Source: Bradyrhizobium arachidis (lineage in GTDB: Bacteria; Pseudomonadota; Alphaproteobacteria; Rhizobiales; Xanthobacteraceae). From it: a DNA stretch of 64,000 bases. Shown here one piece after another: positions 45,913-61,505 of this stretch. The number at the start of each line of letters is the position of its first letter. Position 1 is the stretch's first letter. Made by a program: the position numbers and the translations under genes. The notes beneath the pieces were generated by a model. The model did not search any database and had not been told where the DNA came from. It saw only the letters and a list, made by a program, of their open reading frames with translations. The stretch lies in the NCBI RefSeq assembly GCF_015291705.1, contig NZ_CP030050.1, positions 6,758,001-6,822,000 on the forward strand, written 5' to 3'.

Positions 45913-46950
<1,038 letters not shown>

Positions 46951-47671: not shown

Positions 47672-47992
47672 TCAGGCCTGGCGTTCGGGCGTCGCAACGA
47701 CCAGCCCGTCGAGCTCGTCGGAAACCTTGATCTGGCAGGACAGGCGCGAGTTTGGGCGCACGTCGAAGCCGAAGTCGAGCATGTCCTCTTCCATCGGCGT
47801 CGGGCCGCCGACCTTCTCGCGCCAGGCTTCGTCGACATAGACATGGCAGGTCGCGCAGGCACAGGCGCCGCCGCATTCGGCCTCGATGCCGGGAATGCTG
47901 TTGCGGATCGCAGCTTCCATCACGGTCGCGCCGTTCTCGACTTCCACCGTACGGGTTTCGCCCTTGTGGTCGACAAAGTGAATCTTGGCCAT
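47672..47992 (-). CDS. Adrenodoxin-type [2Fe-2S] ferredoxin
   Basis: A 106-residue ferredoxin. Cluster ligands C40, C46, C49 and C86 fit C-x5-C-x2-C-x36-C; C44 is extra. The pattern matches vertebrate-type ferredoxins that serve cytochromes P450, Fe-S assembly or heme-modifying enzymes. No P450 or isc gene is in the window. The reductase gene at 45913-46941 is a plausible electron donor. Confidence 0.93.
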
Positions 47993-48170: not shown

Positions 48171-48545
48171 CTAGTGCTTGAGGATCGCCGCGATCGCCGC
48201 GCGGACCTCGGCCACGGCCACCTTCAGCGCGGCGAAGGCGTGCGGCCGGTCGTGGCCGGTCCGGATCGCCATCTCGAGGCTGGCGGCCGCGTCGGCAACC
48301 GCAAAGGCGCCGATCCCCCTCGCCGAGCCCTTGAGCTTGTGCGCGAGCGCGCCGGTCTCGGCCGGCAACGCAGTCATTGCGGCGAGTAGGCGGACCGCCT
48401 GCTCGGCGAACATCGCGAGCACTTCCTGTTCCAGCTCGGCATCGCCGAGCGTCATGCGGGAGAGGTGGTCGAGGTCGAGCGGGCTGTCGATGGGCGCAAG
48501 CGGGGGCGAGGGCATCCAGTCCATCCGTTGCAGTTCAGGCGTCAT
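48171..48545 (-). CDS. Single-domain Hpt phosphotransfer protein
   Basis: The Hpt domain pattern GALAHKLKGSARGIGAFAVA carries the phospho-accepting histidine, and the helix before it (EVLAMFAEQAVRLLAAMTAL) fits the family. From ATG 48545 the protein has 124 residues; frames from 48608 or 48524 are also possible. Hpt proteins relay phosphate between hybrid kinases and response regulators. It is divergent from the giant coiled-coil protein, and a TTAACCAT half site lies upstream (48617-48624, read on the minus strand). A SixA-type phosphatase that could act on such proteins is at 10918. Confidence 0.82.
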   Translation of the reverse strand: MTPELQRMDWMPSPPLAPIDSPLDLDHLSRMTLGDAELEQEVLAMFAEQAVRLLAAMTALPAETGALAHKLKGSARGIGAFAVADAAASLEMAIRTGHDRPHAFAALKVAVAEVRAAIAAILKH

Positions 48546-48942
48546 GGCGCAGGCCCCGGCATCGCGCGATGGTTCCGCCGGTTCGGCGGTGACTTCCCCT
48601 CCACCCAAGCATGGAAATGGTTAACGAAATGTTTGGGCCGTTTTACGCAATTCTGCCCGTTTATTGACGAAAAGTTGCCGCAATCGACCAAGTTCGGTGG
48701 AGAATTGCATTTATTGCTAAGGCTTTACGGCGCGATCCTGTTAACGATGATTAAGATTGTCTTAATCGCGGGCATTTCATTCGCGACGCTCTGCCAATAG
48801 GATGTTGCGGAAATTAGCGGACAAGCCGTCCGGGTGGGGACGGCTCGGAGATCCGCGCAAGCGGCATGATCCGGTCTGTGAGCTTGCGTCGCGCGCAGGG
48901 CTCGCGGGGGGCGTGTACAAGTAACGAGGGCTCGGACTGAAC
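48546..48942. other. Divergent control region between Hpt gene and giant coiled-coil gene
   Basis: No gene is seen in this interval of about 400 bp. It is clearly AT-richer than its surroundings from 48610 to 48790. It holds a TTAACCAT half site at 48617-48624 and a cluster of TTAA half sites annotated separately. Confidence 0.5.
48741..48767. promoter_or_regulatory. CtrA-type box cluster
   Basis: TTAA half sites start at 48741, 48751 and 48762. The last two are separated by exactly seven bases (GATTGTC), a perfect TTAA-N7-TTAA, within an 8-bp inverted repeat (GATTAAGA, 3 bases, TCTTAATC; 48749-48767). It lies about 175 bp before the giant gene. CtrA binding is inferred from the motif. Confidence 0.6.
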
Positions 48943-51900
48943 ATGGCGAATACTCCCAAGAAGGTCAAAGACCCGACAGAAGTTGCGCTTTCTGCGATCC
49001 AGGAAGCCCTGAACATCAGCGATACGGCCGCGGACACCAGCCGCAACGCCGCAATGCGCAACGAGACCGCGCCTGCGATGACACCGCCGGCGCCTCCCGT
49101 GTTCGACGACGAGCCGACCTTCGAGCCGCGCCCGGCCGCCAATGAGCGCGCCACCGTGTTCGATTCGATCGAGGAGCCGCGCACCGCGCGCCGTGCCGCC
49201 AATGACGACCGCGAGACCATCGGCCAGCTGCTCCAGGCGCTTCAGAAGGGCCGCCCCGCCCGCAGCGTCTACACCTTCGCCACCATCTTCGCCGGCGTCT
49301 GGCTTGCGGCCTGCGCCGCGCTGACCGTCGGCTTCCTGCCCTCGATCCAGGCCGCCATGGGCCAGAGCGGCGGCGTGCTGGTCATCGCCGGCCTGATCGC
49401 GATGTTCTTCGCCCCGATCATGCTGTTCTATTTCCTGGCAAGCCTCGTCTGGCGCGGCCAGGAAATGCGCATGATCGCGCAAGCGATGGCGCAGGTCGCG
49501 ATCCGCTTCTCCGAGCCGGAAGGCTCGGCCTCCGATTCCATGGTCACGGTCGGCCAGGCCATCCGCCGCGAGGTCGCGGCGATGGGCGACGGCATCGAGC
49601 GCGCGATCGCGCGCGCCGGCGAGCTCGAGACGCTGGTCGCCAACGAGGTCGCCGCGCTCGAGCGCGCCTATAGCGACAACGAGGTGCGCATCCGCGCCCT
49701 GCTCCAGGACATCGCGCATCAGCGCGACAACCTGGTCGGCCAGGCCGAGCAGGTCCGCAGCGCCATCTCCGGCGTGCAGATCGATCTGCGCCACGACATC
49801 GCGCTGATCTCGGACGCGATCGCCTCGCGCGTCGACGAGGTCGCAAAATCCATCACCGGCGCGCTGGAAGAGCGCGGCGCCCACATCACCAGCGCCTTGA
49901 GCAATGCCGGCGACAACATGATCCTGGCGCTCGGCGAGCGCGGCGGCGACCTGCTCGACCGTCTCGAGGAAGCCAGCAACGAGACCACGCGCGCCGTGCT
50001 CGATGCCAGCGAGCGGCTGACCACCAGCCTCAACTTCAAGACCGGCCACGTCCACGACGAGTTCGTCGACCTCGCCGACCGCGTCCACGAAATGCTGAAC
50101 GAGCGCATCGACCGCATCACCGGCGAGTTCGAGCAGCGCTCCGCCGCCATCGTCGACGGCATCTCCGAGCGCACCGAGCAGGTGCACGACAGCCTGAAGA
50201 ACTCGTCGGATTCGCTGCTGCTCGAGCTCGAGCTGCGCTCCAACGACCTCTCCGCCAAGATCGACGACGCCGGCAACCGCCTCGCCGGCCACATCATGAC
50301 CAGCGGCGACAAGGCGAGCGAGGCGCTCGACGCCACCGTCAACGCCCTCGTCGCCAAGGTCGTCAGCCAGACCGAGACCGCGCACGACTCGCTGTCGCTG
50401 CAGATGAGCGCGTTCGACGAGCTGGTGAAGAACCAGGGCTCCGAGCTGGTCGAGAAGTTCGCCCGCGACTCCGGCACGCTGGGCGCGCTGATCACCCGCC
50501 ACATCTCCGAGTTCGACCGCACCGTGAAGACGTTCGGCGGCGAGATCGTCGAGCGCATGGGCCAGCGCACCCAGGACATCCATGAGTCGCTGAAGACCTA
50601 TGTCGACAATTTCGACACCCGCTTCACCGCCAACGGCGGCGAGATCACGGCCGTGCTCGACCAGCGTCTGGTGCAGTTCGAGACCACGATCGGCGACCGC
50701 GTCAGCAATTTCGACGCCTCGCTGAACGGCAAGATCGCCAGCCTCGACGGCACCATCGAAGGCCACATCAAGACCTTCGACGAGCAGCTCGGCGGCCGCG
50801 TCAGCTCGCTCGAGCAGTCGTTCGATACCCGCGCGCGGTCCGTCACCGAGACCATCGACGGCCGTCTCAACACGCTCGCGACCTCGCTGACCGACGGTGC
50901 CGCGCAGGCGATCCAGTCGATCGACTCGCGCCTCACCCACCTCACGACGTCGCTGACCGACGGCGCATCGCAGACCATCCACACCATCGATACGCGCCTG
51001 ACGCATCTGACCACCACCCTCACCGGCGGCGCCTCGCAGGCGCTCGAGTCCATCGACACCCGCCTCACCTACCTGACGACCGCGCTGACCAACGGCGCCT
51101 CGCACGCCATGCAGTCGATCGACACCCGCCTCGGTCTGTTGACCTCGACGCTGACCGACGGCACCGCGCAGGCGATCGAGGCGGTCGACCGCCGCATCAC
51201 CGGCGTCACCGAGATCATCGACAGCCGCAGCACGCATCTGACCGACACGGTCACCGCGCGCTTCCAGGACGTCCAGCAGGCCATCGAGACCAAGGTCGGC
51301 TCTGTCGCGAGCGACATCGACGTGCGCGTGGCGCAGTTCGAGGACCTGCTCGGCTCGCGCGTCGAGGCCGTCGCCGGCCGCATCGAGAGCAGCGGCCGCC
51401 AGGCCAGCGAGGACATGATCTCCCGCGCCGAGATGATCTCGACCGCGATCCGCTCGCACGTCGAGGACGCCGAACGCTCGCTCACCAACCTCGTCGTCAA
51501 CACCAGCGAGACGATCCAGACCGGTGCGCGCACCGCCCAGCAGTCGCTGATGACGGTCTCCTCCGACGTCAACGCCCAGCTCAAGATGACCTCCGCCGAG
51601 GTCGAGCGCGCGCTGACCGCGGTCGGCACGGGAGCAGCGAACTCGATCCTGAGCAGCGCCCGCGAAGCGCAGTCGTCGCTGGTCGCAGCATCCGGCGATG
51701 CATCGAACCAGATCAAGGGGCTCGCAGCCGACGTCGAGCGCACGCTGTCGGCGGCCGGTTCCGCCACCGCAGCCTCGATCCTGGCCGGCGCCCGCGAGGT
51801 GCAGACCACGCTCGTCACGGCGTCTTCGGACGCGGCCAATCACGTCAAGACGCTCACCGCCGACGTGCAGCGTTCGCTGTCGCTCGCCGGCACCACCACG

Positions 51901-54594
51901 GCGGAATCGATCACGGCCGGCGCCCGCGATGCGCAGACTTCGCTGATCGCCGCCTCGAGCGAGACTGCCAACCAGATCAAGGCACTCTCCTCCGACGTGC
52001 AGCGCTCGCTCTCGATGGCGGGTACTGCGACGGCCGAATCCATCATGGCCGGCGCCCGCGAAGCCCAGAGCACGCTGGTCACGGCGTCCTCGGACGCGGC
52101 AAGCCAGGTCAAGTCGCTTGCGGCCGAAGTGCATCGTTCGCTCTCGCAGGTCGGCCAGACCACTGCCGAGACGATCACCACCAGCGCCCGCGACGCCCAG
52201 AGCACCCTGCTCTCGGTCTCCGCCGAACAGACCAGCCAGGTCCGCTCGCTCGCGGCCGAGATGCAGCGCGCGCTGGCGACCGCCGGCGGCGCCACCATCG
52301 AGGCGCTGACCAGCGGCGTGCGCGAAGCGCAGGGCACGCTGATCTCCGCATCGACCGATGCGGCGAGCCAGATCAAGTCGCTGACCACGGACATCGAGCG
52401 CACGCTGACCGCGGTCGGCGCCGACACCGCCTCGACCATCCTCAACAGCGCGCGTGAGGCGCAGACCTCACTGACCTCGACCTCCGCGGATGCCGCGAGC
52501 CAGATCCGCACGATCTCGACCGAGATCGAGCGTGCACTGAGCGCGGCCACCGCGAATGCGACCAGCGACATCCAGAGCAGCGCGCTCAACGCCCAGAACG
52601 CGCTGATCTCCGCCTCCAACGAGGCGAGCTCGCGGGTCAAGTCGAGCTCGGCCGACATCGAGCGCTCGGTGCTTGCCGCCTCGAGCAGCTTCGGCCAGGC
52701 CATGACCGGCAAGACCGACGAGATCGTCACCTATGTGCAGCAGCAGGCCGACCGTCTGTCGAACATGATCGACGCCAAGCGCGGCGCGCTGGTCGACGCG
52801 ATCGGCTCGAAGACCAGCCAGCTCACGCTCGACATCGACCGCGTCACCTCCGACGCGCTGAAGTCGATCGAGACGCGCGGCCACGCCTTCTCGCAGACCA
52901 TGATGGGCAACGGCTCGGAAGTCGCCCGCACTATCAATGCGGCGAGCGAGATGGCCACCGGCGCGGTCGGCAAGTCGCTCAAGGACCTCGAACAGGCCTC
53001 GCGTTCCGCGATCGACCAGTCGCGCCAGGTCTCGATCGCGGCCGTCACCGAGATGCAGGAGACCAGCAAGATCCTGCGCACCGACACGGTCGCCCTTTTC
53101 GAGCGCCTGCGCGAAGGCAACATCCTGCTGCAGGAGGTGCTGACCGGTGCGCACGACAACCTCAACTCGCTCGAGCGGGCGCTGGTGACGCGTGTCGCCG
53201 ACTTCGTCTCGGCGATGAACGACGTCACCTCGCGCAACGGCGCTGCGACGCAGAACCTGGAAGACCAGCTCAACGTCTTCAACAGCAAGACCACGAAGGC
53301 GCTGCAGGATCTCGGCGAGCTGTCGACCCAGTTCGACGCCCACGGCAAGGCGCTCGTCGATGCCGCCCAGGTCGTCGAGCAAAGCAACAAGAACACCACC
53401 GCCTCGCTCGCCGAACGCAAGCAGGCGCTGGAATCGCTCGTCACCACGATCGACCTGCGCACGACCGATCTCGACCAGCGGCTGTCGCGCTTCACCGGCC
53501 TGCTCGATGAATCGCTGGCCGCCGCCGAGGAGCGCGCCCGCGACATCGCCCGCGTCGTCGCGGAGACCGCCGGCGCAGGCTCGGCCGCGATCACCCGCCA
53601 GTTCGAGGCGGTGCGATCGGCCTCCGAGGAGGAGCACCGGCAGACCATCGAGGCCATGCACGACATCTACCGCCAGACCACCGACGAGGCGGATGCGATG
53701 TTCAAGCAGTCGACCGAGAAGTTCACCAACCTCGTGTCCAGCATGAAGCAGATGGCGTTCGAGATGCACAACGAGCTCGAAGCCACCCGCAACGAGCTGC
53801 GCCGCGGCGTGCTCGAGATGCCGCAGGAGGCCGCCGAGAGCACTGCGCAGATGCGCAAGGTGATCGTCGACCAGATCGAGGCCCTCGCCGAGCTCAACCG
53901 CATCGTGGCCCAGCACGGCCGCGGCCTCGACGTCTCGACGACGGGCCGCGCCTCTGCCGCCGTCCAGCGCCAGGATGAGCCGTTGATGGCAGCCGCGGGC
54001 GGTCGCGGCACCGAGACGCGCATGCGCGACACCGGCAGCGCCTCGACGCTGCCGCCGCCGGACCTCGGCATGCCCGCCCCCTCGCGTCGCACCGAAGCGC
54101 CGTCGGTTGCGCCTTCCAGCAACGACCAGAACCGTGACGGCTGGCTGTCGGATCTGCTCAACCGCACCGACGCCAACCAGGGCGCCCCGAACGGTCGCGA
54201 GGCTTCCCGTGGCCGCGCTGCACCCGCGCCGCAGCCGCAGGCGCCGCAGAGCAGCAGCAATCCGCTGGAATCGCTGTCGCTCGACATCGGTCGGCTGATG
54301 GACCGCAACCTCGCCGCCGAGATGTGGGACCGCTACCAGCGCGGCGAGAACAAGGCCTTCACCAAGCGCCTGTACACGCCCGCCGGCCAGAAGGCCTTTG
54401 ACGAGGTCGCCCGCAAGTATCGCGCCGACCGCAACTTCAAGGGCACCGTCGACCGCTACGTCGCCGAGTTCGAGCGCCTGCTCGACGAAGTCGCCCGCGA
54501 CGGCCGCGGCCCGCAGGAACTGCGCAGCCACCTGACCTCGGAGACGGGCCTGGTCTACACCCTGCTCGCGCATGCGGCGGGCCGGCTGGGGTAA
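48943..54594 (+). CDS. Giant membrane-anchored coiled-coil protein, probable growth-pole-ring (GPR/RgsE)-like
   Basis: An 1883-residue protein. A disordered N-terminus (1-105) is followed by two membrane helices (about 109-131 and 144-169), which leave the long remainder on one side of the inner membrane. Then come about 1500 residues of amphipathic helix. Within these are five 22-residue repeats (residues 647-756, TSLTDGA...IDTRLTHLT type) and nine exact 44-residue repeats (857-1252, each with AREAQ...SSDAASQIK...DVERSL). The 22/44 period is that of apolipoprotein-type helices. A Pro/Ser/Arg-rich linker (about 1660-1780) leads to a conserved-looking C-terminal domain (about 1785-1883) with EMWDRYQRGENKAFTKRLYT. 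Size and layout resemble GPR of Agrobacterium and RgsE of Sinorhizobium, which form a ring at the growth pole; orthology is inferred. Databases may also call it kinesin-like. Confidence 0.75.
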   Translation: MANTPKKVKDPTEVALSAIQEALNISDTAADTSRNAAMRNETAPAMTPPAPPVFDDEPTFEPRPAANERATVFDSIEEPRTARRAANDDRETIGQLLQALQKGRPARSVYTFATIFAGVWLAACAALTVGFLPSIQAAMGQSGGVLVIAGLIAMFFAPIMLFYFLASLVWRGQEMRMIAQAMAQVAIRFSEPEGSASDSMVTVGQAIRREVAAMGDGIERAIARAGELETLVANEVAALERAYSDNEVRIRALLQDIAHQRDNLVGQAEQVRSAISGVQIDLRHDIALISDAIASRVDEVAKSITGALEERGAHITSALSNAGDNMILALGERGGDLLDRLEEASNETTRAVLDASERLTTSLNFKTGHVHDEFVDLADRVHEMLNERIDRITGEFEQRSAAIVDGISERTEQVHDSLKNSSDSLLLELELRSNDLSAKIDDAGNRLAGHIMTSGDKASEALDATVNALVAKVVSQTETAHDSLSLQMSAFDELVKNQGSELVEKFARDSGTLGALITRHISEFDRTVKTFGGEIVERMGQRTQDIHESLKTYVDNFDTRFTANGGEITAVLDQRLVQFETTIGDRVSNFDASLNGKIASLDGTIEGHIKTFDEQLGGRVSSLEQSFDTRARSVTETIDGRLNTLATSLTDGAAQAIQSIDSRLTHLTTSLTDGASQTIHTIDTRLTHLTTTLTGGASQALESIDTRLTYLTTALTNGASHAMQSIDTRLGLLTSTLTDGTAQAIEAVDRRITGVTEIIDSRSTHLTDTVTARFQDVQQAIETKVGSVASDIDVRVAQFEDLLGSRVEAVAGRIESSGRQASEDMISRAEMISTAIRSHVEDAERSLTNLVVNTSETIQTGARTAQQSLMTVSSDVNAQLKMTSAEVERALTAVGTGAANSILSSAREAQSSLVAASGDASNQIKGLAADVERTLSAAGSATAASILAGAREVQTTLVTASSDAANHVKTLTADVQRSLSLAGTTTAESITAGARDAQTSLIAASSETANQIKALSSDVQRSLSMAGTATAESIMAGAREAQSTLVTASSDAASQVKSLAAEVHRSLSQVGQTTAETITTSARDAQSTLLSVSAEQTSQVRSLAAEMQRALATAGGATIEALTSGVREAQGTLISASTDAASQIKSLTTDIERTLTAVGADTASTILNSAREAQTSLTSTSADAASQIRTISTEIERALSAATANATSDIQSSALNAQNALISASNEASSRVKSSSADIERSVLAASSSFGQAMTGKTDEIVTYVQQQADRLSNMIDAKRGALVDAIGSKTSQLTLDIDRVTSDALKSIETRGHAFSQTMMGNGSEVARTINAASEMATGAVGKSLKDLEQASRSAIDQSRQVSIAAVTEMQETSKILRTDTVALFERLREGNILLQEVLTGAHDNLNSLERALVTRVADFVSAMNDVTSRNGAATQNLEDQLNVFNSKTTKALQDLGELSTQFDAHGKALVDAAQVVEQSNKNTTASLAERKQALESLVTTIDLRTTDLDQRLSRFTGLLDESLAAAEERARDIARVVAETAGAGSAAITRQFEAVRSASEEEHRQTIEAMHDIYRQTTDEADAMFKQSTEKFTNLVSSMKQMAFEMHNELEATRNELRRGVLEMPQEAAESTAQMRKVIVDQIEALAELNRIVAQHGRGLDVSTTGRASAAVQRQDEPLMAAAGGRGTETRMRDTGSASTLPPPDLGMPAPSRRTEAPSVAPSSNDQNRDGWLSDLLNRTDANQGAPNGREASRGRAAPAPQPQAPQSSSNPLESLSLDIGRLMDRNLAAEMWDRYQRGENKAFTKRLYTPAGQKAFDEVARKYRADRNFKGTVDRYVAEFERLLDEVARDGRGPQELRSHLTSETGLVYTLLAHAAGRLG
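50881..51210 (+). repeat. Five tandem 66-bp (22-residue) repeats inside the giant gene
   Basis: Successive units encode T-S-L-T-D-G-A-x-Q-x-I-x-x-I-D-x-R-L-T-x-L-T, five times without length change (residues 647-756). The last unit is the most diverged. The period equals that of apolipoprotein amphipathic helices. Confidence 0.85.
51511..52698 (+). repeat. Nine tandem 132-bp (44-residue) repeats inside the giant gene
   Basis: Units start at residues 857, 901, 945, 989, 1033, 1077, 1121, 1165 and 1209, all exactly 44 residues. Shared positions include A-R-E-A-Q at 6-10, S/A-S at 16-17, Q-I/V-K at 23-25 and D-V/I-E/Q-R at 30-33. The absence of any indel argues for selection on register. Confidence 0.92.
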
Positions 54595-54617
54595 GCGGCA
54601 ATCATCGCGAATAGAAA

Positions 54618-54648
54618 ACGGAGGCCTCACGGCCTCCGTTTTTGTTTG
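54618..54648 (+). terminator. Rho-independent terminator after the giant gene
   Basis: ACGGAGGCC (54618-54626) pairs with GGCCTCCGT (54631-54639) over a 4-base loop, followed by TTTTGTTT. It is 23 bp after the stop codon. Confidence 0.88.
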
Positions 54649-54934: not shown

Positions 54935-55804
54935 CTACTGCCGCCTCGGCGCCGCTACCGGCTTCGGCGGCTCGGGCGGCGGGGCGGCTTGCGATGAGTT
55001 GCTGGCGCCGAACAGCACGCGGGTGGGGTTGCGGTCAAAATTGTTCACGGCGCGGCTGATGTCGCCGAGGGTGCGGCGGCCGTCCGTCATCAGCGCGCCG
55101 GAGCGCTTGTCGAAATCTTCGGCGAGTTCGCGGATCGACTTCACCGCCTGGAACAGCTCGCCGCCGTCCTTGCCGCCGGCGAGCGTGTTGAGGCCGAGCA
55201 TGAGATTGTCGGCCTTGAGCATCACGCCGTCGACCTTGGCCATCACGCCGTCGATCTTCTCGGAGTTGCGGGCGAGCGAGTTGGTGAAGGTCTCCAGGTT
55301 CTTCAGCGAGTTCTTCACCGACTCCTGATTGTCGGCGACGATCTTGTTGATGTTCTGGAGCGTGGCGCGGATCGCCTCGGTGACGTCCTGGAGCTTGTTC
55401 GGATCGGCCGTCAGCGTGGGAATGCCGTCCTCGTCGAGCGGCGGCGCCGGTGCCGCCTCCTCGCCGCCCTTGAGCGAGATCGCGGCAACGCCCGTCAGGC
55501 CCTGGAATTCGAGGCCGACCAGCGTGTCCTTGCGGATCGGCGCGTTGTTCTCGACCATGGCGAGTGCGACAACCCGCCGCGGGTTATCGAGCTTCACCGA
55601 GACCACTTCACCTACCCGGATACCGTTGAAGTTGACGCTGCCGCCATTGCGCAGGCCCGCGGCCGGGCCCTCGAACACGACGCGCAGCGGGCTACGCTGC
55701 TTGGTGGTGTGCAGCGACTGGAACCACAGCACGAAGCCGATCGCCGCGGCGATCACCGCCAGCGTGAACGACCCGATCAATACGTAATTCGCCCGCGTTT
55801 CCAT
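54935..55804 (-). CDS. mlaD: MlaD-type MCE lipid-binding protein
   Basis: The protein (289 residues) has one N-terminal membrane helix (YVLIGSFTLAVIAAAIGFVLWF) and a periplasmic MCE domain (about 38-120: LRVVFEGPAAGLRNGGSVNF, then GVAAISLKGG). A long helical tail (about 140-240) with repeated KNLETFTNSLARNSEK-type segments and a Pro-rich end follow. MlaD hexamers carry phospholipid between the inner membrane transporter and the outer membrane. It is the last gene of mlaE-mlaF-mlaD. The mlaA, mlaB and mlaC genes are not in the window. Confidence 0.9.
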   Translation of the reverse strand: METRANYVLIGSFTLAVIAAAIGFVLWFQSLHTTKQRSPLRVVFEGPAAGLRNGGSVNFNGIRVGEVVSVKLDNPRRVVALAMVENNAPIRKDTLVGLEFQGLTGVAAISLKGGEEAAPAPPLDEDGIPTLTADPNKLQDVTEAIRATLQNINKIVADNQESVKNSLKNLETFTNSLARNSEKIDGVMAKVDGVMLKADNLMLGLNTLAGGKDGGELFQAVKSIRELAEDFDKRSGALMTDGRRTLGDISRAVNNFDRNPTRVLFGASNSSQAAPPPEPPKPVAAPRRQ

Positions 55805-55829
55805 CAGGTGCTCCGGCTACTCAACCCAG

Positions 55830-56615
55830 CTACGAACCCATGACCGCGCGGGCGCGCTTGCCATGGAAATACTGCCTCAGCCAGGGATGCTGCGAGGCCT
55901 GCATGTCGGCCATCGACCCTGCAGCAATGATCTTACCGTTCCCTAAAACGGCGATGCGGTCACATGCTGTGTAGAGGCTGTCGAGGTCGTGCGTTACCAT
56001 GAAAACCGTCAGCCCCAAAGTGCGCTGGAGCGTCCTCACCAGTTCGTCAAAATCGCCGGCGCCGATCGGGTCGAGGCCCGAGGTCGGCTCGTCCAGGAAC
56101 ACGAGGTCAGGATCGAGCGAGAGCGCGCGGGCCAGCGCCACGCGCTTGATCATGCCGCCCGACAATTCCGACGGAAAGCGCTCAGCAACCTCGGGCTTGA
56201 GGCCCACCATCGTGAGCTTGGCCATGGTGATCTCGTCCATCAGCCGCTGCGACACGCGAAGATATTCGCGCATCGGAAACTGGATGTTCTGCCGCACGGT
56301 GAGCGAAGAGAACAGCGCGCCCTGCTGGAACAGCACGCCCCAGCGCCGCTCGACATTGCGGCGCTGCGATGTGCTGGAGGAATCGAGGTCGACGCCGAAC
56401 ACCTCGATGGAGCCTGCGACCTTCGGCACGAGGCCGATGATGGTGCGCGTCAAAACCGATTTGCCCGCGCCAGAGGGGCCGACGAAGCCGAGGATCTCGC
56501 CGCGCTTGACGTCGAGGTTGAGGCCGTCGAGCACGCGCGTCGATCCGAACTGCACGGTGATGTCGCGGACGCGGATGATCGGGTTTTGAACAGCGTTTTG
56601 GATGTCTTGCGCCAT
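55830..56615 (-). CDS. mlaF: MlaF-type ABC ATPase
   Basis: The ATP-binding subunit (261 residues) has Walker A GPSGAGKS (46-53), signature LSGGMIKRVALARA, Walker B LVFLDEP and the switch histidine in FMVTHDLDS. It powers the Mla lipid transporter. The start codon lies two bases after the mlaE stop, so the genes are translationally linked. Confidence 0.93.
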   Translation of the reverse strand: MAQDIQNAVQNPIIRVRDITVQFGSTRVLDGLNLDVKRGEILGFVGPSGAGKSVLTRTIIGLVPKVAGSIEVFGVDLDSSSTSQRRNVERRWGVLFQQGALFSSLTVRQNIQFPMREYLRVSQRLMDEITMAKLTMVGLKPEVAERFPSELSGGMIKRVALARALSLDPDLVFLDEPTSGLDPIGAGDFDELVRTLQRTLGLTVFMVTHDLDSLYTACDRIAVLGNGKIIAAGSMADMQASQHPWLRQYFHGKRARAVMGS

Positions 56616-56617
56616 CG

Positions 56618-57751
56618 TCACATCCCGATCGAGGCGAAGAAGATGGCGAACACGCCGTCCATGACGATGACGAAGAAGATGCCCTTCACCACCGAGGCTG
56701 TCGTGTGCTGTCCGAGCGATTCCGCGCTGCCCTGCACCGCGAGCCCTTCGACGCAGGCGACGATGCCGATCACGGCGGCCATGACAGGTGCCTTGACGAT
56801 GCCGACGATGAAATGGTCGATCGAGATGGCGTCGCGCAGCCGCAGCAGGAAGGCCTCGGGATCGACACCGCCATAGAGCCAGGCGACGAGCCCGCCGCCA
56901 TAGAGCGCGGCCATCGCGCCGAGGAAGGCGAGGATCGGCAGCGCCAACACCAGCGCCAGCATGCGCGGCAGCACCAGCACCTCGATCGGATCGAAGCCCA
57001 TGGTGCGCAGTGCGTCGATCTCCTCGCGCATCTTCATCGAGCCGAGCTCGGCGGTGTAGGCGCTGCCCGAGCGGCCCGCGACCATGATCGCGACCAAGAG
57101 CACGCCGATCTCGCGCAGCACCAGCACGCCGAGCATGTCGACCACGAAGATGTCGGCGCCGAAACGGCGGAAATGAAAGATGCCCTGCTGGGCTATGATG
57201 CAGCCGATCAGGAAGGTGATCAGCACGATGATCGGCACCGCGCGCCAGCACACCTGCTCCAAATGGTGCACGGTCGAAGTCAGGCGGAACGAGCGTGGAT
57301 GGATCAGCACGCGAAAGCCTGCGGCGAGCACCGCGCCAAGCATGTCGATGAGGCCGGTCATCGTGCCGGTAAGGCCGGCCACGGCGCGGCCGATCTGCTC
57401 CAGCATGCCGGTGATGGTGATCGTGCTGCTCTCGATCACGGGGGTCGCCCTGACCCGCCGCACCTCGTCGACGAGGCTGGAATAATTGGCGGAGAGGCCG
57501 GCGATCTGCGCCTCGACCGGCCCTTGCGTCAGGCTGCGGCGCAGCCGCTCGATCAGCCAGGCGCCGAAGGTGTCGAGCTTGGCGACCTCGGAGACGTCGA
57601 TGAAGATGCTTTGCGGGCCGCCGGCGAGCTTCTCGGCGTCAGCCACCATCCGCTCCAGCACCGGCGCGAAGCTCGCGGTCCAGGTTCCGGTGGCGCAGAG
57701 GGCCAGCGCGTTGCCTTTGGCAATCCGCTCCAGCTTGGGATCGCCGTTCAA
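56618..57751 (-). CDS. mlaE: MlaE-type permease with N-terminal STAS domain
   Basis: The permease (377 residues) has a STAS domain in its first 110 residues (FIDVSEVAKLDTFGAWLIER), equivalent to a fused MlaB. The MlaE core of five to six helices follows, with the family segments MVAGRSGSAYTAELGSMKM and EEIDALRTMGFDPIEVLVLP. STAS-fused MlaE is common in alphaproteobacteria, which explains the missing mlaB. It heads the operon and is divergent from the epimerase gene. Confidence 0.92.
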   Translation of the reverse strand: MNGDPKLERIAKGNALALCATGTWTASFAPVLERMVADAEKLAGGPQSIFIDVSEVAKLDTFGAWLIERLRRSLTQGPVEAQIAGLSANYSSLVDEVRRVRATPVIESSTITITGMLEQIGRAVAGLTGTMTGLIDMLGAVLAAGFRVLIHPRSFRLTSTVHHLEQVCWRAVPIIVLITFLIGCIIAQQGIFHFRRFGADIFVVDMLGVLVLREIGVLLVAIMVAGRSGSAYTAELGSMKMREEIDALRTMGFDPIEVLVLPRMLALVLALPILAFLGAMAALYGGGLVAWLYGGVDPEAFLLRLRDAISIDHFIVGIVKAPVMAAVIGIVACVEGLAVQGSAESLGQHTTASVVKGIFFVIVMDGVFAIFFASIGM

Positions 57752-57885: not shown

Positions 57886-58881
57886 ATGACTTCCAGCAAA
57901 GTTCCGGCACTTAGGGCGCAAATCGAGCGCTTTCCGATTGCCGGCAGTTTCACCATCAGCCGGGGCGCCAAGACCGAGGCGGTGACCGTCGTGGCCGAGG
58001 TGAGCCGGGACGGCCTGACCGGCCGCGGCGAGTGCGTGCCCTATCCCCGCTATGGCGAGACCCCTGAGGCGACGCTAGCCGCGATCCAGGCCATGGAGGA
58101 CGCGATCCGGGGCGGTCTCGACCGGGAGGCCCTCCAGGCCGCCATGAAGCCTGGCGCGGCCCGCAACGCCCTGGATTGCGCCTTCATCGATCTGGAAGCC
58201 AAAACGGCGGACCTGCGGGCCTGGAGCCTGCTCGGCCGCCCCTCGCCGGGCGAGCGCACCACCGCCTTCACGATTTCGTTGGGGACGCCCGAGGCGATGG
58301 CGGCGGCGGCCGCCAAGGCCGCGCACCGGCCCCTGCTCAAGATCAAGCTCGGCGGCGATGGCGATCCGGAGCGAATTGCGGCGGTGCGCAGGGCCGCCCC
58401 GGAGTCCGAGCTGATCGTCGACGCCAACGAGGCCTGGGCCGAGGCCAATCTGGAAGCCAACCTCGCCGCCTGCGCCGCCGCCGGCGTCACGCTCGTGGAG
58501 CAGCCGCTGCCAGCCGGCAAGGACGACGCGCTGGCGCGGATCGAGCGGCCGCTCGCGGTCTGCGCCGACGAGAGCGTGCATGACCGTGGTTCGCTCGCGC
58601 CATTGCGAGATCGCTACGACGCCGTGAACATCAAGCTCGACAAGACCGGCGGCCTCACCGAAGCCCTCGCGATGGCCGATGACGCGCAAGCGCTCGGCTT
58701 CGAGATCATGATCGGCTGCATGGTCGCAACCTCGCTGTCGATGGCCCCCGCCATGCTGGTGACGCCGCAGGCGCGCTTCGTCGATCTTGACGGCCCGCTG
58801 CTGCTGGCGCGCGACCGCGATCACGCCCTGCGTTACGACGGCAGCCTGGTCTATCCGCCGGAGTCCTCGCTCTGGGGGTGA
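57886..58881 (+). CDS. Dipeptide (L-Ala-D/L-Glu) epimerase
   Basis: This enolase-superfamily protein (331 residues) has the K152-x-K154 pair (LKIKLGG), metal ligands in IVDANEAW, VEQPLPAG and CADES, and the opposite lysine in NIKLDKTGG. The pattern is that of muconate-lactonizing-subgroup dipeptide epimerases (EC 5.1.1.20), which recycle murein L-Ala-D-Glu. Substrate range in this subgroup varies. Its 3' end overlaps the convergent MFS gene by 31 bp. Confidence 0.86.
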   Translation: MTSSKVPALRAQIERFPIAGSFTISRGAKTEAVTVVAEVSRDGLTGRGECVPYPRYGETPEATLAAIQAMEDAIRGGLDREALQAAMKPGAARNALDCAFIDLEAKTADLRAWSLLGRPSPGERTTAFTISLGTPEAMAAAAAKAAHRPLLKIKLGGDGDPERIAAVRRAAPESELIVDANEAWAEANLEANLAACAAAGVTLVEQPLPAGKDDALARIERPLAVCADESVHDRGSLAPLRDRYDAVNIKLDKTGGLTEALAMADDAQALGFEIMIGCMVATSLSMAPAMLVTPQARFVDLDGPLLLARDRDHALRYDGSLVYPPESSLWG

Positions 58882-60047
58882 GCGATCAGCCGATGCCGCG
58901 CCGACCAGATCACCAGCGCTCCGGCCGCGGCCATCGCAGCCATGACGTAATAGAGGCCGTCGCCGATGCGGGCGTAGATCGCGCCTGAGGCGATCGAGGT
59001 CGCAGCGCCGAGCAGCCCGTTGCAGGCGGCATAGTAGCCCTGCCCCCGCGCGATCTGGTGCGAGGGCACGCGCTGCACCAGCAGGCTCATGGTGCCGAGG
59101 ATGGTCATGCCGAAGGTGAGGCCGTGGCCGAGCTGCGCGAGCGCGAGCAGCGCCAGCGGCGGCTCGTTCGCGGTGACGATCCAGCGCAGCACGGCGCTCA
59201 AGCCCCCGATCGCGATCATCGTGGACGGATGCAGCGAGAAGCGCGGCGACAGCGCGAACACGACGATCTCGGCGATCACGCCCAGCGTCCACAGCCCCGC
59301 GATCGTCAGGCCGCCGAGACCATGGAGCTGCCAGTTGATGGCCGAGAAGGTGTAATAGGCGACGTGACTGCCCTGGATCAGCGCGGCCGAGGCGATCACG
59401 GCCCAGAAGCCGAGATCGCGCAGCAGCGCCGTGTCGGCACGCGCCTCAGCGCTCTTCCGCCTGACATCGTCGAGCGGCTGCAATAAAAGGCTGGCGAGCA
59501 CCGCGACGACGGCCCAGGCGACGATGACCCAGATCAGGTCGCGCGCCGCGATGACGTCGACGAGATAGCCGCAGGCGAGCGAGCCCGCGGCGAACGCCGC
59601 CGAGCCCCACAGCCGCAACGGGCCGTAATCGAGCCCGTAGCGCGCGACGCCGCGCAGCGCAAAGGCATCGGTCAGCGGCATCGTCGGTGTCCACATCATG
59701 CAAGTCAGCGCATAGATCAGAAACAGCGCCAGCGGCTGCTGCTGCAAGCCCACGGCCGCAAACCCGATGGCGGTCGCCAGCACTGACACCATCATGCCCG
59801 CGCGGATGGCGTGCCGCTTTTCGGCAAAGGCGGTCACTTGCGGCAGCGTGGTGAAGCGCGTGATCGCCGGCAGCGCGTTGATGAGGCCGATCCAGCTTGC
59901 GTCGATGCCGATCGCCTTCAGCCAGACCGGAAAGAACGGCAGATGCGTTCCCGATACCGCGAACACCGCCGAGTAGAACAGCGCGAGGCTGACGGCGAAT
60001 CGCCGCTTCACGGCTGCTGGCGTGGGGATTTGTGATTCGGACTGCAT
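58851..60047 (-). CDS. MFS transporter (HcaT/phenylpropionate-permease-like)
   Basis: A 398-residue, 12-helix transporter. The N-terminus FYSAVFAVSGTHLPFFPVWL and the motif RLWGSAAFAAGSLACGYLVD match the MFS_1-like group that includes HcaT and LacY-like permeases. The substrate is unknown. It overlaps tail-to-tail with the epimerase gene by 31 bp and is divergent from the next gene, with 75 bp between starts. Confidence 0.8.
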   Translation of the reverse strand: MQSESQIPTPAAVKRRFAVSLALFYSAVFAVSGTHLPFFPVWLKAIGIDASWIGLINALPAITRFTTLPQVTAFAEKRHAIRAGMMVSVLATAIGFAAVGLQQQPLALFLIYALTCMMWTPTMPLTDAFALRGVARYGLDYGPLRLWGSAAFAAGSLACGYLVDVIAARDLIWVIVAWAVVAVLASLLLQPLDDVRRKSAEARADTALLRDLGFWAVIASAALIQGSHVAYYTFSAINWQLHGLGGLTIAGLWTLGVIAEIVVFALSPRFSLHPSTMIAIGGLSAVLRWIVTANEPPLALLALAQLGHGLTFGMTILGTMSLLVQRVPSHQIARGQGYYAACNGLLGAATSIASGAIYARIGDGLYYVMAAMAAAGALVIWSARHRLIAHPQSEDSGG

Positions 60048-60122
60048 CAAACCAATTGCGATTCGGTCGATATCGTGGTGATCGTTAGTGTAACGCGTGG
60101 TGATTTGCGCGACGAGATTGTC

Positions 60123-61505
60123 ATGGCCAACGAAGCATTCGCCCTTTCGCCCATGTCTGCCCGCGCGGCCGAGCCGAACGAGCAGGATTACGACGCGATC
60201 CGCGAAGCCTTCATGGAGACCGCGCGCGGCCGCTGGTTCCTCGGCGAATACGCCAAGCGCAACCGCAATGCCGACACCCGCATGGTGCTGGATGCGGTCG
60301 CGAAAATCGAAGAAACCCTTGCGGCACAGCGACAACCCGTCGTCGAGGACCGCCTGCCCGAAGCGCTGGTCGAGATCCGCCGCGCCATCCGCGAGGCCGA
60401 GACCATCGCGATCGCGGCATGCGATCCCGCTGCGATCGAAGCCAGTCTCGCCCCGATCCCGCGCGGGATCCGCATCATCAAGGAGATCTCCTGGCGCTGG
60501 CGCGAGATCGGCGCCGATGGGCGAATCTGCGACCTCATTGATTCGCAGCTTGCCTCGATCGAGGCCGCCTGCGGGCAGATTTCGACCATCGACCCCCGCG
60601 TCGAGCTCAAGGCCGCATTCGATCTGCTCAGGGAACGCATCGAGCAGACCGAGGGCGGCGCAACGCCGCAGGCCGCGCATCCCTCGCCGGTGCCTGCGCA
60701 GGACACACCGCCGGTCGCAGAGCCTGTCGAGCCCGCATCAGCCGCGATGGCGAGCGAGGGAGCCGTGGCTTTTGCGGAGACGCCGCCGGACGTCGCGGCG
60801 GCTCCCGAGCCCGAAGCAGCAGTGGAGACGGCCGGCACGCCAGAGCCGTCCGCGATCGCCGAGCAGGCCATCGATGCTGCCGTCGCGCCGGAGATCGCAG
60901 CCGAGAGCGAAAGCGCGCCCGACCATGTCGCGGTTGCGGACATCGCTTTTGAAGAGCCGGTCGTCGAGCCCGCCGCCGTCGCGGAGGTGACCGACGAGTT
61001 CTCGCTCGACGCCGAGGACGAAGCCATACTCGAGGCCATCGCGCTGGAGATGGCTGCACCCGATCCCGAGTTCGACGAGATCATCGAGCCGGTCGAGATC
61101 GCAGCGGCTGCTCCCGAGCCGATGGCTGCGGCGACCGCAGCGCCCGTTGCCGTCGAGGTCGAAGTGCCGGTTGCCGTTGCGCCAGCCGCACCGGTCGCGG
61201 AGCCCGCAGAAGACGCGCCGATCGCGATGGAGTCGCTCACGCGCCTCACCAACGCGATCGCCGAGGCCGCTGCCGAGGTGATGGAGCAGCCCGCCCCCGC
61301 CATGGCCGCCGCCGCAAGCTTCGGCGCCGCGCCGACCGCGACGCTGCCGATGCCCTCGCCCCTGTCCGCGTCCTTGCCCGAGCCCTCGCTCGGCGCCACC
61401 ATCCTCGCCAGTGGCATGCTGCAAAAGCCCCGCGCCGCCGCCAACGATCCGCTGGCCCCGATCCGTCGCATGACCCAGGCTGAGAAGATCGCGTTCTTCT
61501 CGTAA
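60123..61505 (+). CDS. Uncharacterised protein with RGRWFL N-terminal domain and Ala/Pro/Glu-rich linker
   Basis: The protein has 460 residues from this ATG. Residues 20-180 form a helical domain with ETARGRWFLGEYAKRNRNAD (about 33-52), a pattern I associate with unannotated Rhizobiales proteins. Residues about 185-400 are almost entirely Ala, Pro, Glu and Val and must be disordered. A short conserved-looking tail (LAPIRRMTQAEKIAFFS) closes it. There is no signal peptide or membrane helix. Such a layout suits a scaffold or adaptor, but the function is unknown. It may be annotated elsewhere simply as hypothetical. Confidence 0.65.
   Translation: MANEAFALSPMSARAAEPNEQDYDAIREAFMETARGRWFLGEYAKRNRNADTRMVLDAVAKIEETLAAQRQPVVEDRLPEALVEIRRAIREAETIAIAACDPAAIEASLAPIPRGIRIIKEISWRWREIGADGRICDLIDSQLASIEAACGQISTIDPRVELKAAFDLLRERIEQTEGGATPQAAHPSPVPAQDTPPVAEPVEPASAAMASEGAVAFAETPPDVAAAPEPEAAVETAGTPEPSAIAEQAIDAAVAPEIAAESESAPDHVAVADIAFEEPVVEPAAVAEVTDEFSLDAEDEAILEAIALEMAAPDPEFDEIIEPVEIAAAAPEPMAAATAAPVAVEVEVPVAVAPAAPVAEPAEDAPIAMESLTRLTNAIAEAAAEVMEQPAPAMAAAASFGAAPTATLPMPSPLSASLPEPSLGATILASGMLQKPRAAANDPLAPIRRMTQAEKIAFFS

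Follow-up and report, generated by a model that had tools for sequence, protein, structure and literature searches.

A giant gene of Bradyrhizobium arachidis as the likely orthologue of the pole scaffold GPR/RgsE, and its proposed kinship with TipN

The window analysed here is a stretch of 64,000 nucleotides from Bradyrhizobium arachidis. Its most prominent gene encodes a protein of 1883 residues and is flanked by several genes that recur beside its relatives (Table 1). An initial annotation, made from the letters alone, had described a giant membrane-anchored protein and had proposed that it is the counterpart of the growth pole ring protein (GPR) of Agrobacterium and of RgsE of Sinorhizobium. 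The open reading frame, with an ATG start, is borne out. A search of the 9.87 Mb genome, a single contig, with the gene's own sequence returns this gene alone, and the closest relatives retrieved are Bradyrhizobium proteins with at most 95% identity in the best segment. Two long antisense open reading frames lie opposite the giant gene on the minus strand (48814-52134, 1106 aa; 52468-54630, 720 aa) and are probably artefacts of high-GC codons.

Table 1. Features at the giant-gene locus, with positions counted from the first letter of the window
Feature	Position	Strand	Basis
Pyridine-nucleotide-disulphide (ferredoxin-reductase-like) oxidoreductase	45913..46941	-	22/39 loci
2Fe-2S ferredoxin, conserved neighbour	47672..47992	-	Pfam Fer2; 38/39 loci
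Hpt-domain protein, divergent neighbour, acceptor-His motif AHKLKG	48171..48608	-	Pfam Hpt 33.1 bits, cut-off 24.6; synteny
Perfect CtrA-type site TTAA-N7-TTAA, divergent Hpt/GPR intergenic region	48751..48765	.	read in sequence
Probable GPR/RgsE/TipN-family scaffold protein, 1883 aa	48943..54594	+	ORF, ATG start, homology
N-terminal tail motif VALSAIQEAL, residues 14-23	48982..49011	+	conserved pattern
Two membrane helices, residues 114-162	49282..49428	+	hydropathy and AlphaFold model
Juxtamembrane helix, residues 163-285, with GQAIRREVAAMGDG at 204-217	49429..49797	+	alignment, n=42 sequences
11-residue-repeat rod, about residues 286-1400, limits approximate	49798..53142	+	periodicity, indels
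DNA tandem repeats, 66/132 bp (22/44 aa)	50852..51201	+	repeat search
DNA tandem repeats, 132/264 bp (44/88 aa)	51654..52216	+	repeat search
Disordered linker, residues 1661-1774	53923..54264	+	composition
Linker motif DGWLSDLLNR, residues 1732-1741, order-specific	54136..54165	+	pattern count
C-terminal domain, six helices, residues 1775-1883	54265..54591	+	model and profile matches
mlaD-mlaF-mlaE-like lipid-transport genes	54935..57751	-	MlaD, MlaE by Pfam; ATPase by reading sequence
Enolase-superfamily (dipeptide-epimerase-like) enzyme	57886..58881	+	20/39 loci
MFS_1-like transporter, real start probably further in	58851..60680	-	17/39 loci

The two N-terminal membrane helices of the initial annotation were recovered by hydropathy (segments 114-132 and 144-162) and in an AlphaFold model built on an N-terminal alignment, where helices cover both segments and are followed by a single helix of 138 residues (pLDDT 90.6, pTM 0.43). 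Such an arrangement would leave the bulk of the protein in the cytoplasm. The juxtamembrane helix is the best-conserved stretch of the N-terminal module in the alignment, and it has an apparently homologous part in TipN, the new-pole marker of Caulobacterales. Ahead of the membrane segments, the pattern A[LIVF]xA[VIL][EQD]xAL, which was drawn up after the tails had been viewed, occurs in 29 of 39 N-terminal tails from across the order Rhizobiales and in 0.0 of shuffled ones.

Beyond the juxtamembrane helix, the hydrophobicity of the rod is dominated by a single period of 3.665 residues (11/3), with a power of 74.9 against a shuffle 99th percentile of 9.8; power at the heptad period of 3.5 is 0.0, and the sequence repeats at 11, 22, 44 and 88 residues. 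The 11/3 phase lies near 83 degrees at residues 298-847 and near 107-124 degrees at 848-1397, and then breaks, leaving residues 1400-1660 helical though less regular. From the amphipathic helix of about 1500 residues in the initial annotation, a long helical rod therefore stands, while its regular 11-residue part is confined to about residues 290-1400. With a helix rise of 0.15 nm per residue, this regular part of about 1100 residues would measure about 165 nm if straight. That is of the same order as the GPR ring of about 200 nm (PMC8262873), a comparison that is suggestive only.

The periodicity had also been called apolipoprotein-type, and this description is only partly right. The Pfam family Apolipoprotein (PF01442) matches the protein at 196.5 bits (cut-off 90) in 9 stretches. 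Across the 9.87 Mb genome, 7 of its matches fall in the giant gene; the 2 others are weak (E 2.5e-4 and 5.5e-4), and 7 of 14 control genomes also show matches of this strength. Among the 11 positions of the repeat (residues 287-1265), however, just three are free of charge; one of them is 100% ILVMF, another 61%, and the third holds mostly small residues. Their 3-4-4 spacing forms a narrow seam and is the geometry of an 11-residue coiled coil, a model that suits the rod no less well than a lipid-binding apolipoprotein face does. The eukaryotic apolipoproteins A-I, A-IV and E share the 11/22-residue amphipathic helical periodicity, whereas the window protein is membrane-anchored, far longer and has a narrow hydrophobic seam.

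It has been proposed for GPR that the rod is a true apolipoprotein-type surface that binds lipids and handles them at the growing pole. In keeping with this idea, the profile of the N-terminal alignment matches apolipoprotein A-IV (E 4.5e-10) in addition to the PF01442 score, mlaD and mlaE each lie nearby in 17 of 39 order loci, and deletion of the A-IV-like domains impairs GPR (PMC8262873). Nevertheless, the uncharged face, 3 in 11 positions, is narrow, and a shared 11/3 periodicity alone could yield profile matches of this kind. We treat lipid binding by the rod as possible yet rather unlikely.

Composition bears out the disordered linker of the initial annotation (59% P/G/S/A/N/Q over residues 1661-1775; rich in A, P, S and G), and the compact C-terminal domain was likewise recovered as an AlphaFold model of six helices (residues 1766-1883, pLDDT 80.5, pTM 0.71). 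Comparison of this domain with solved structures gave no clear relative. In GPR, the C-terminal domain is needed for function (PMC8262873). Within the linker, the pattern W[LIVM]x[DEN][LIV]L, drawn up after two examples had been viewed, occurs in 26 of 41 order proteins, compared with 0.01 in shuffles, and in 0 of 20 proteins from outside the order.

The proposed orthology to RgsE was examined with a Sinorhizobium meliloti record (CP090106.1; our locus L160) that carries a gene of 2089 aa annotated as kinesin (L160 13662-19931), the published length of RgsE being 2089 aa (PMC7327166). This 3.7 Mb record is filed as pSymB and looks like the chromosome because rgsE and cytochrome bc1 genes are present. 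When RgsE is searched against the window genome, only the giant gene matches, and it does so at both ends (26% identity in the N part, 37% in the C part); conversely, RgsE is the sole match of the window protein in the S. meliloti record. The two are thus each other's only match at both ends, as orthology predicts, and neither a failure of reciprocity nor a better orthologue elsewhere in the genome, the outcomes named beforehand as refuting, was found against RgsE. Gene order, a second check suggested at the outset, agrees as well: a ferredoxin gene is present in 38 of 39 loci across Rhizobiales, and the order ferredoxin-Hpt-giant gene is common to the window and S. meliloti.

RgsE resembles the window protein in its two N-terminal membrane helices, in a long helical region of PF01442 type whose period is close to 11/3 (3.655), in its C-terminal domain and in the gene order of its locus. 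The proteins differ in length, with 1883 aa in the window as opposed to 2089 for RgsE (SMc00190) and 2115 for GPR (Atu1348). They also differ in their internal repeats, which lie at 22, 29, 44 and 106 residues in RgsE and at 22/44/88 in the window protein, and in the 11-residue phase, which drifts along the rod of RgsE and stays put in that of the window protein. The link to Agrobacterium GPR would run through the published homology between RgsE and GPR.

Of 101 order genomes searched, 100 contain the N-terminal module, which gives a single match in 99 of these; the one miss is a genome that is 88% complete. According to Krol et al., every Rhizobiales family has RgsE homologues (PMC7327166). 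An orthologue in Bradyrhizobium is therefore to be expected, and the orthology proposed in the initial annotation is supported. By analogy, its function would be that of GPR/RgsE, proteins that reside at the growing pole and whose depletion makes cells round, whereas overproduction makes them branch (PMC8262873, PMC7327166).

For comparisons within the order, 40 loci were chosen from the 100 matching genomes for family spread and long contigs; one that lacked an N-terminal match (L137) stands outside the neighbour tally (n=39) and the motif and CtrA counts. The open frame spans 927-2940 residues in the 39 order-wide loci (median 1892), and the C-terminal domain was found in 38 of these 39. Several members are irregular. 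In L132 (G085), both the N and C parts were found, but the open frame that carries the N part closes without the C domain, so that the gene may be broken or mis-sequenced. In L047 (Bradyrhizobium sacchari), the gene looks broken or mis-sequenced because it is read in two frames, whose pieces match separately, near residue 1545 of the homologue. L131 (G077), from the family of the window organism, has an unusually divergent N-terminal module (E 3e-24) and a C domain that is 53-56% identical. A short, degraded extra C-terminal end lies about 1.2-1.9 kb downstream of the full gene in L014 (13025-13166) and L051 (13683-13808). Family members are variously annotated as kinesin, ATPase, chromosome segregation ATPase or negative regulator of septation ring formation.

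Profile searches raised one further reading, in which the gene encodes a ZorA/MotA/TolQ-type motor or anti-phage protein. NCBIfam models do match, with ZorA_4 at E 0.0011 for the window protein and ZorA_1 at E 1.5e-19 for RgsE; yet the scores of 17.9 against a curated cut-off of 500 bits and of 69.8 against 190, respectively, fall far short, the best stretches lie in the helical rod (residues 385-625 of the window protein), and the neighbours are ferredoxin, Hpt and mla genes. We consider this reading hardly credible; at 17.9 of 500 bits, the window protein falls outside the ZorA family as curated.

The divergent Hpt gene recurs at many loci. An iterated Hpt profile, built from these same loci, finds such a gene in 35 of 43 order loci (the window, L160 and L161 included) and, outside the order, in 11 of 21 loci from a few families; plain tblastn with the window Hpt protein finds it in 29 of 39 order loci. 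Of the 35 order genes, 31 are divergent and lie within 1 kb of the giant open frame, those in L126 and L127 share the strand of the giant gene at a distance of about 1.8 kb, and no distance could be assigned for L116 and L134. Most of these neighbours retain the acceptor-His motif. It was not found in the Hpt-like neighbours of two sphingomonad loci (L199 7643-7936; L191), where the protein may be a structural partner. A literature search that combined Hpt domain, polar growth and Rhizobiales found nothing.

The intergenic region shared by the Hpt gene and the giant gene contains a perfect copy of TTAA-N7-TTAA, which we take to be the CtrA-type consensus. With at most one mismatch and within 500 bases upstream, this site occurs at 26 of 42 order loci, compared with a mean of 5.1 and a maximum of 9 of 42 under a first-order Markov null and with 5-15 of 42 for twelve other spacer lengths. 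Exact copies are present at 8 of the 42 loci versus 0.2 expected, and 15 of the 26 sites fall between -192 and -249, with distances measured from the earliest start codon that the open frame allows. Outside the order, no clear excess of the site is seen (5 of 24 loci versus 1 to 4 for other spacers). This element probably couples transcription of the giant gene to the cell cycle, judging from sequence; the passages on GPR consulted in the growth-pole-ring literature do not take up its regulation by CtrA.

The length of the rod varies in a characteristic manner. Among 80 Bradyrhizobium-like relatives, kept from 167, rod gaps are exact multiples of 11 residues in 122 of 125 cases, which amount to 49 of 52 distinct events where 4.7 would be expected, whereas linker indels among the same relatives measure 1-15 residues and none is a multiple of 11. 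Slippage between DNA repeats may also favour multiples of 11; outside both repeat arrays, 17 of 20 events obey the rule, and those that depart from it are found near residues 1542-1584. Eight pairs of other loci divide evenly, four following the rule (2/2, 2/2, 4/4 and 9/11 gaps) and four not (1/3, 1/6, 2/5 and 3/15). It should be noted that the motif, CtrA and indel tests were devised after the site, motifs and repeats of the window had been seen.

Beyond the order, a C-domain profile made from order sequences only matches 126 of 337 genomes of Alphaproteobacteria, 123 of them once, and gives no match in the other 211. Twenty class loci were chosen from the 126 genomes for family spread and long contigs, although several share a family. 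Hydropathy shows one or more strong membrane segments near the N terminus of all 20 open reading frames, and two in 13 of them at the threshold used. Members in sphingomonads (Erythrobacter and relatives) are annotated as ATPase or hypothetical, and in Sphingomonas parapaucimobilis the homologue again has a divergent Hpt neighbour.

To locate Caulobacterales, the holdfast gene HfaA served as a marker; it matches 12 of the 337 genomes, 11 of them over the cut-off. The strongest HfaA family is f115 (G376), whose relative G163 has a weak and partial HfaA match. These two genomes each have a single C-domain match at modest significance (E 1.9e-6 and 1.2e-5), in open reading frames of 838 and 863 aa. 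A search with the G376 protein returned an identical hypothetical protein of an unclassified Brevundimonas as its best match and, among 120 matches listed, at least 16 named tipN or TipN, all from Brevundimonas. In what follows, TipN means Brevundimonas proteins so named by annotation, and their relatives.

Profile-profile comparison with TipN, whose profile is shallow (Neff 1.5-1.6), gave a probability of 94.4 and E 9.4e-8 for the C domain and a probability of 95.2 and E 2.8e-8 for the N-terminal module, as opposed to E 0.0079 or worse for reversed and other-segment controls. The C profile used here held 39 order and 10 class rows, none from f115, and the N profile order rows only. That both ends match suggests that GPR and TipN descend from one ancient pole landmark. 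Orthology is further supported by a shared neighbour, since the sole match of the window MFS gene in each of G376 and G163 adjoins tipN and is convergent with it. TipN likewise has two membrane helices, a long helical region, apparently homologous N and C modules, one C-domain match per genome in two genomes and an MFS neighbour in Brevundimonas. It differs in being about 830-880 aa long with a much shorter middle, in the absence of a PF01442 match from the two TipN proteins scanned (196.5 bits in the window protein) and in its known Caulobacter role, which is polarity and not unipolar elongation. The Hpt gene was not found in either of the two TipN loci.

Alternatively, the giant gene could be a GPR/RgsE orthologue while GPR and TipN are merely analogous, that is, unrelated membrane-anchored coiled-coil proteins of the new pole. 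Two published statements point this way, with TipN called analogous to GPR in PMC13170164 and Caulobacter crescentus-specific in PMC4460556, and the missing PF01442 match can be read in the same sense, as can the N-terminal profile, which in plain hmmsearch matches one of the two TipN loci (L203) and misses the other (L204). Set against this are the controlled matches of both terminal modules, the MFS neighbour with its one match per genome, and the fact that the C profile had picked a single open reading frame in each genome before the name TipN was known. In addition, the order-based C profile gives strong matches in bridging families that are HfaA-positive (f172 near 1e-36, f55 near 1e-32, f56 near 1e-20). 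We thus regard mere analogy as improbable and consider it highly probable that the gene is the Bradyrhizobium orthologue of GPR/RgsE, a new-pole scaffold belonging with Caulobacter TipN to one alphaproteobacterial family of pole landmarks.

Members of about 690 aa occur in two f56 loci (L198 and L205), the former with an Hpt neighbour. A TipN-like factor has been proposed for Hyphomonas neptunium (PMC6650430), and if f56 corresponds to Hyphomonadaceae, its members are possible candidates for that factor. As for the family link itself, one sentence in PMC8546619 states that GPR has similarity to TipN; in the literature searched, mostly open-access and represented in part, domain homology or synteny between GPR and TipN was not found set out.

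On the preferred reading of a GPR/RgsE orthologue, the two membrane helices would anchor the protein in the inner membrane, and the long 11-residue-repeat rod would run into the cytoplasm and self-associate. The conserved C-terminal domain and the short tail motifs may recruit partners of envelope or division type; RgsE is reported to interact with TolQ, RgsA and RgsS (PMC7327166). Clustered at the new pole, as the GPR/RgsE literature would lead one to expect for Bradyrhizobium, the scaffold could confine growth there. The CtrA-type site, common to the divergent Hpt gene, would tie transcription to the cell cycle, and the Hpt protein itself may have a role in this arrangement.

Taken as a whole, we think it likely that GPR/RgsE and TipN form one orthologous, mostly single-copy and class-wide family with unnamed members elsewhere, for example in sphingomonads. 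In many lineages, the gene would form an ancient divergent pair with Hpt, under CtrA-type control in Rhizobiales; in Bradyrhizobium, rod length would change almost only in 11-residue steps, which could adjust how far the rod extends. On this view, unipolar growth would have been built upon a polarity landmark of greater age.

Specialists should find most of value in the family link and the 11-residue rule. Thanks to the rule, rod length lends itself to clean variation in experiments, and the Hpt neighbour together with the CtrA-type site offers a handle on how the growth-pole scaffold is wired to the cell cycle. The connection to TipN, described as similarity in PMC8546619 and as analogy in PMC13170164, is where the present analysis adds value. 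If there is indeed one family, work on Caulobacter polarity would be transferable to polar growth in rhizobia, and candidate pole landmarks would be at hand in sphingomonads and other Alphaproteobacteria.
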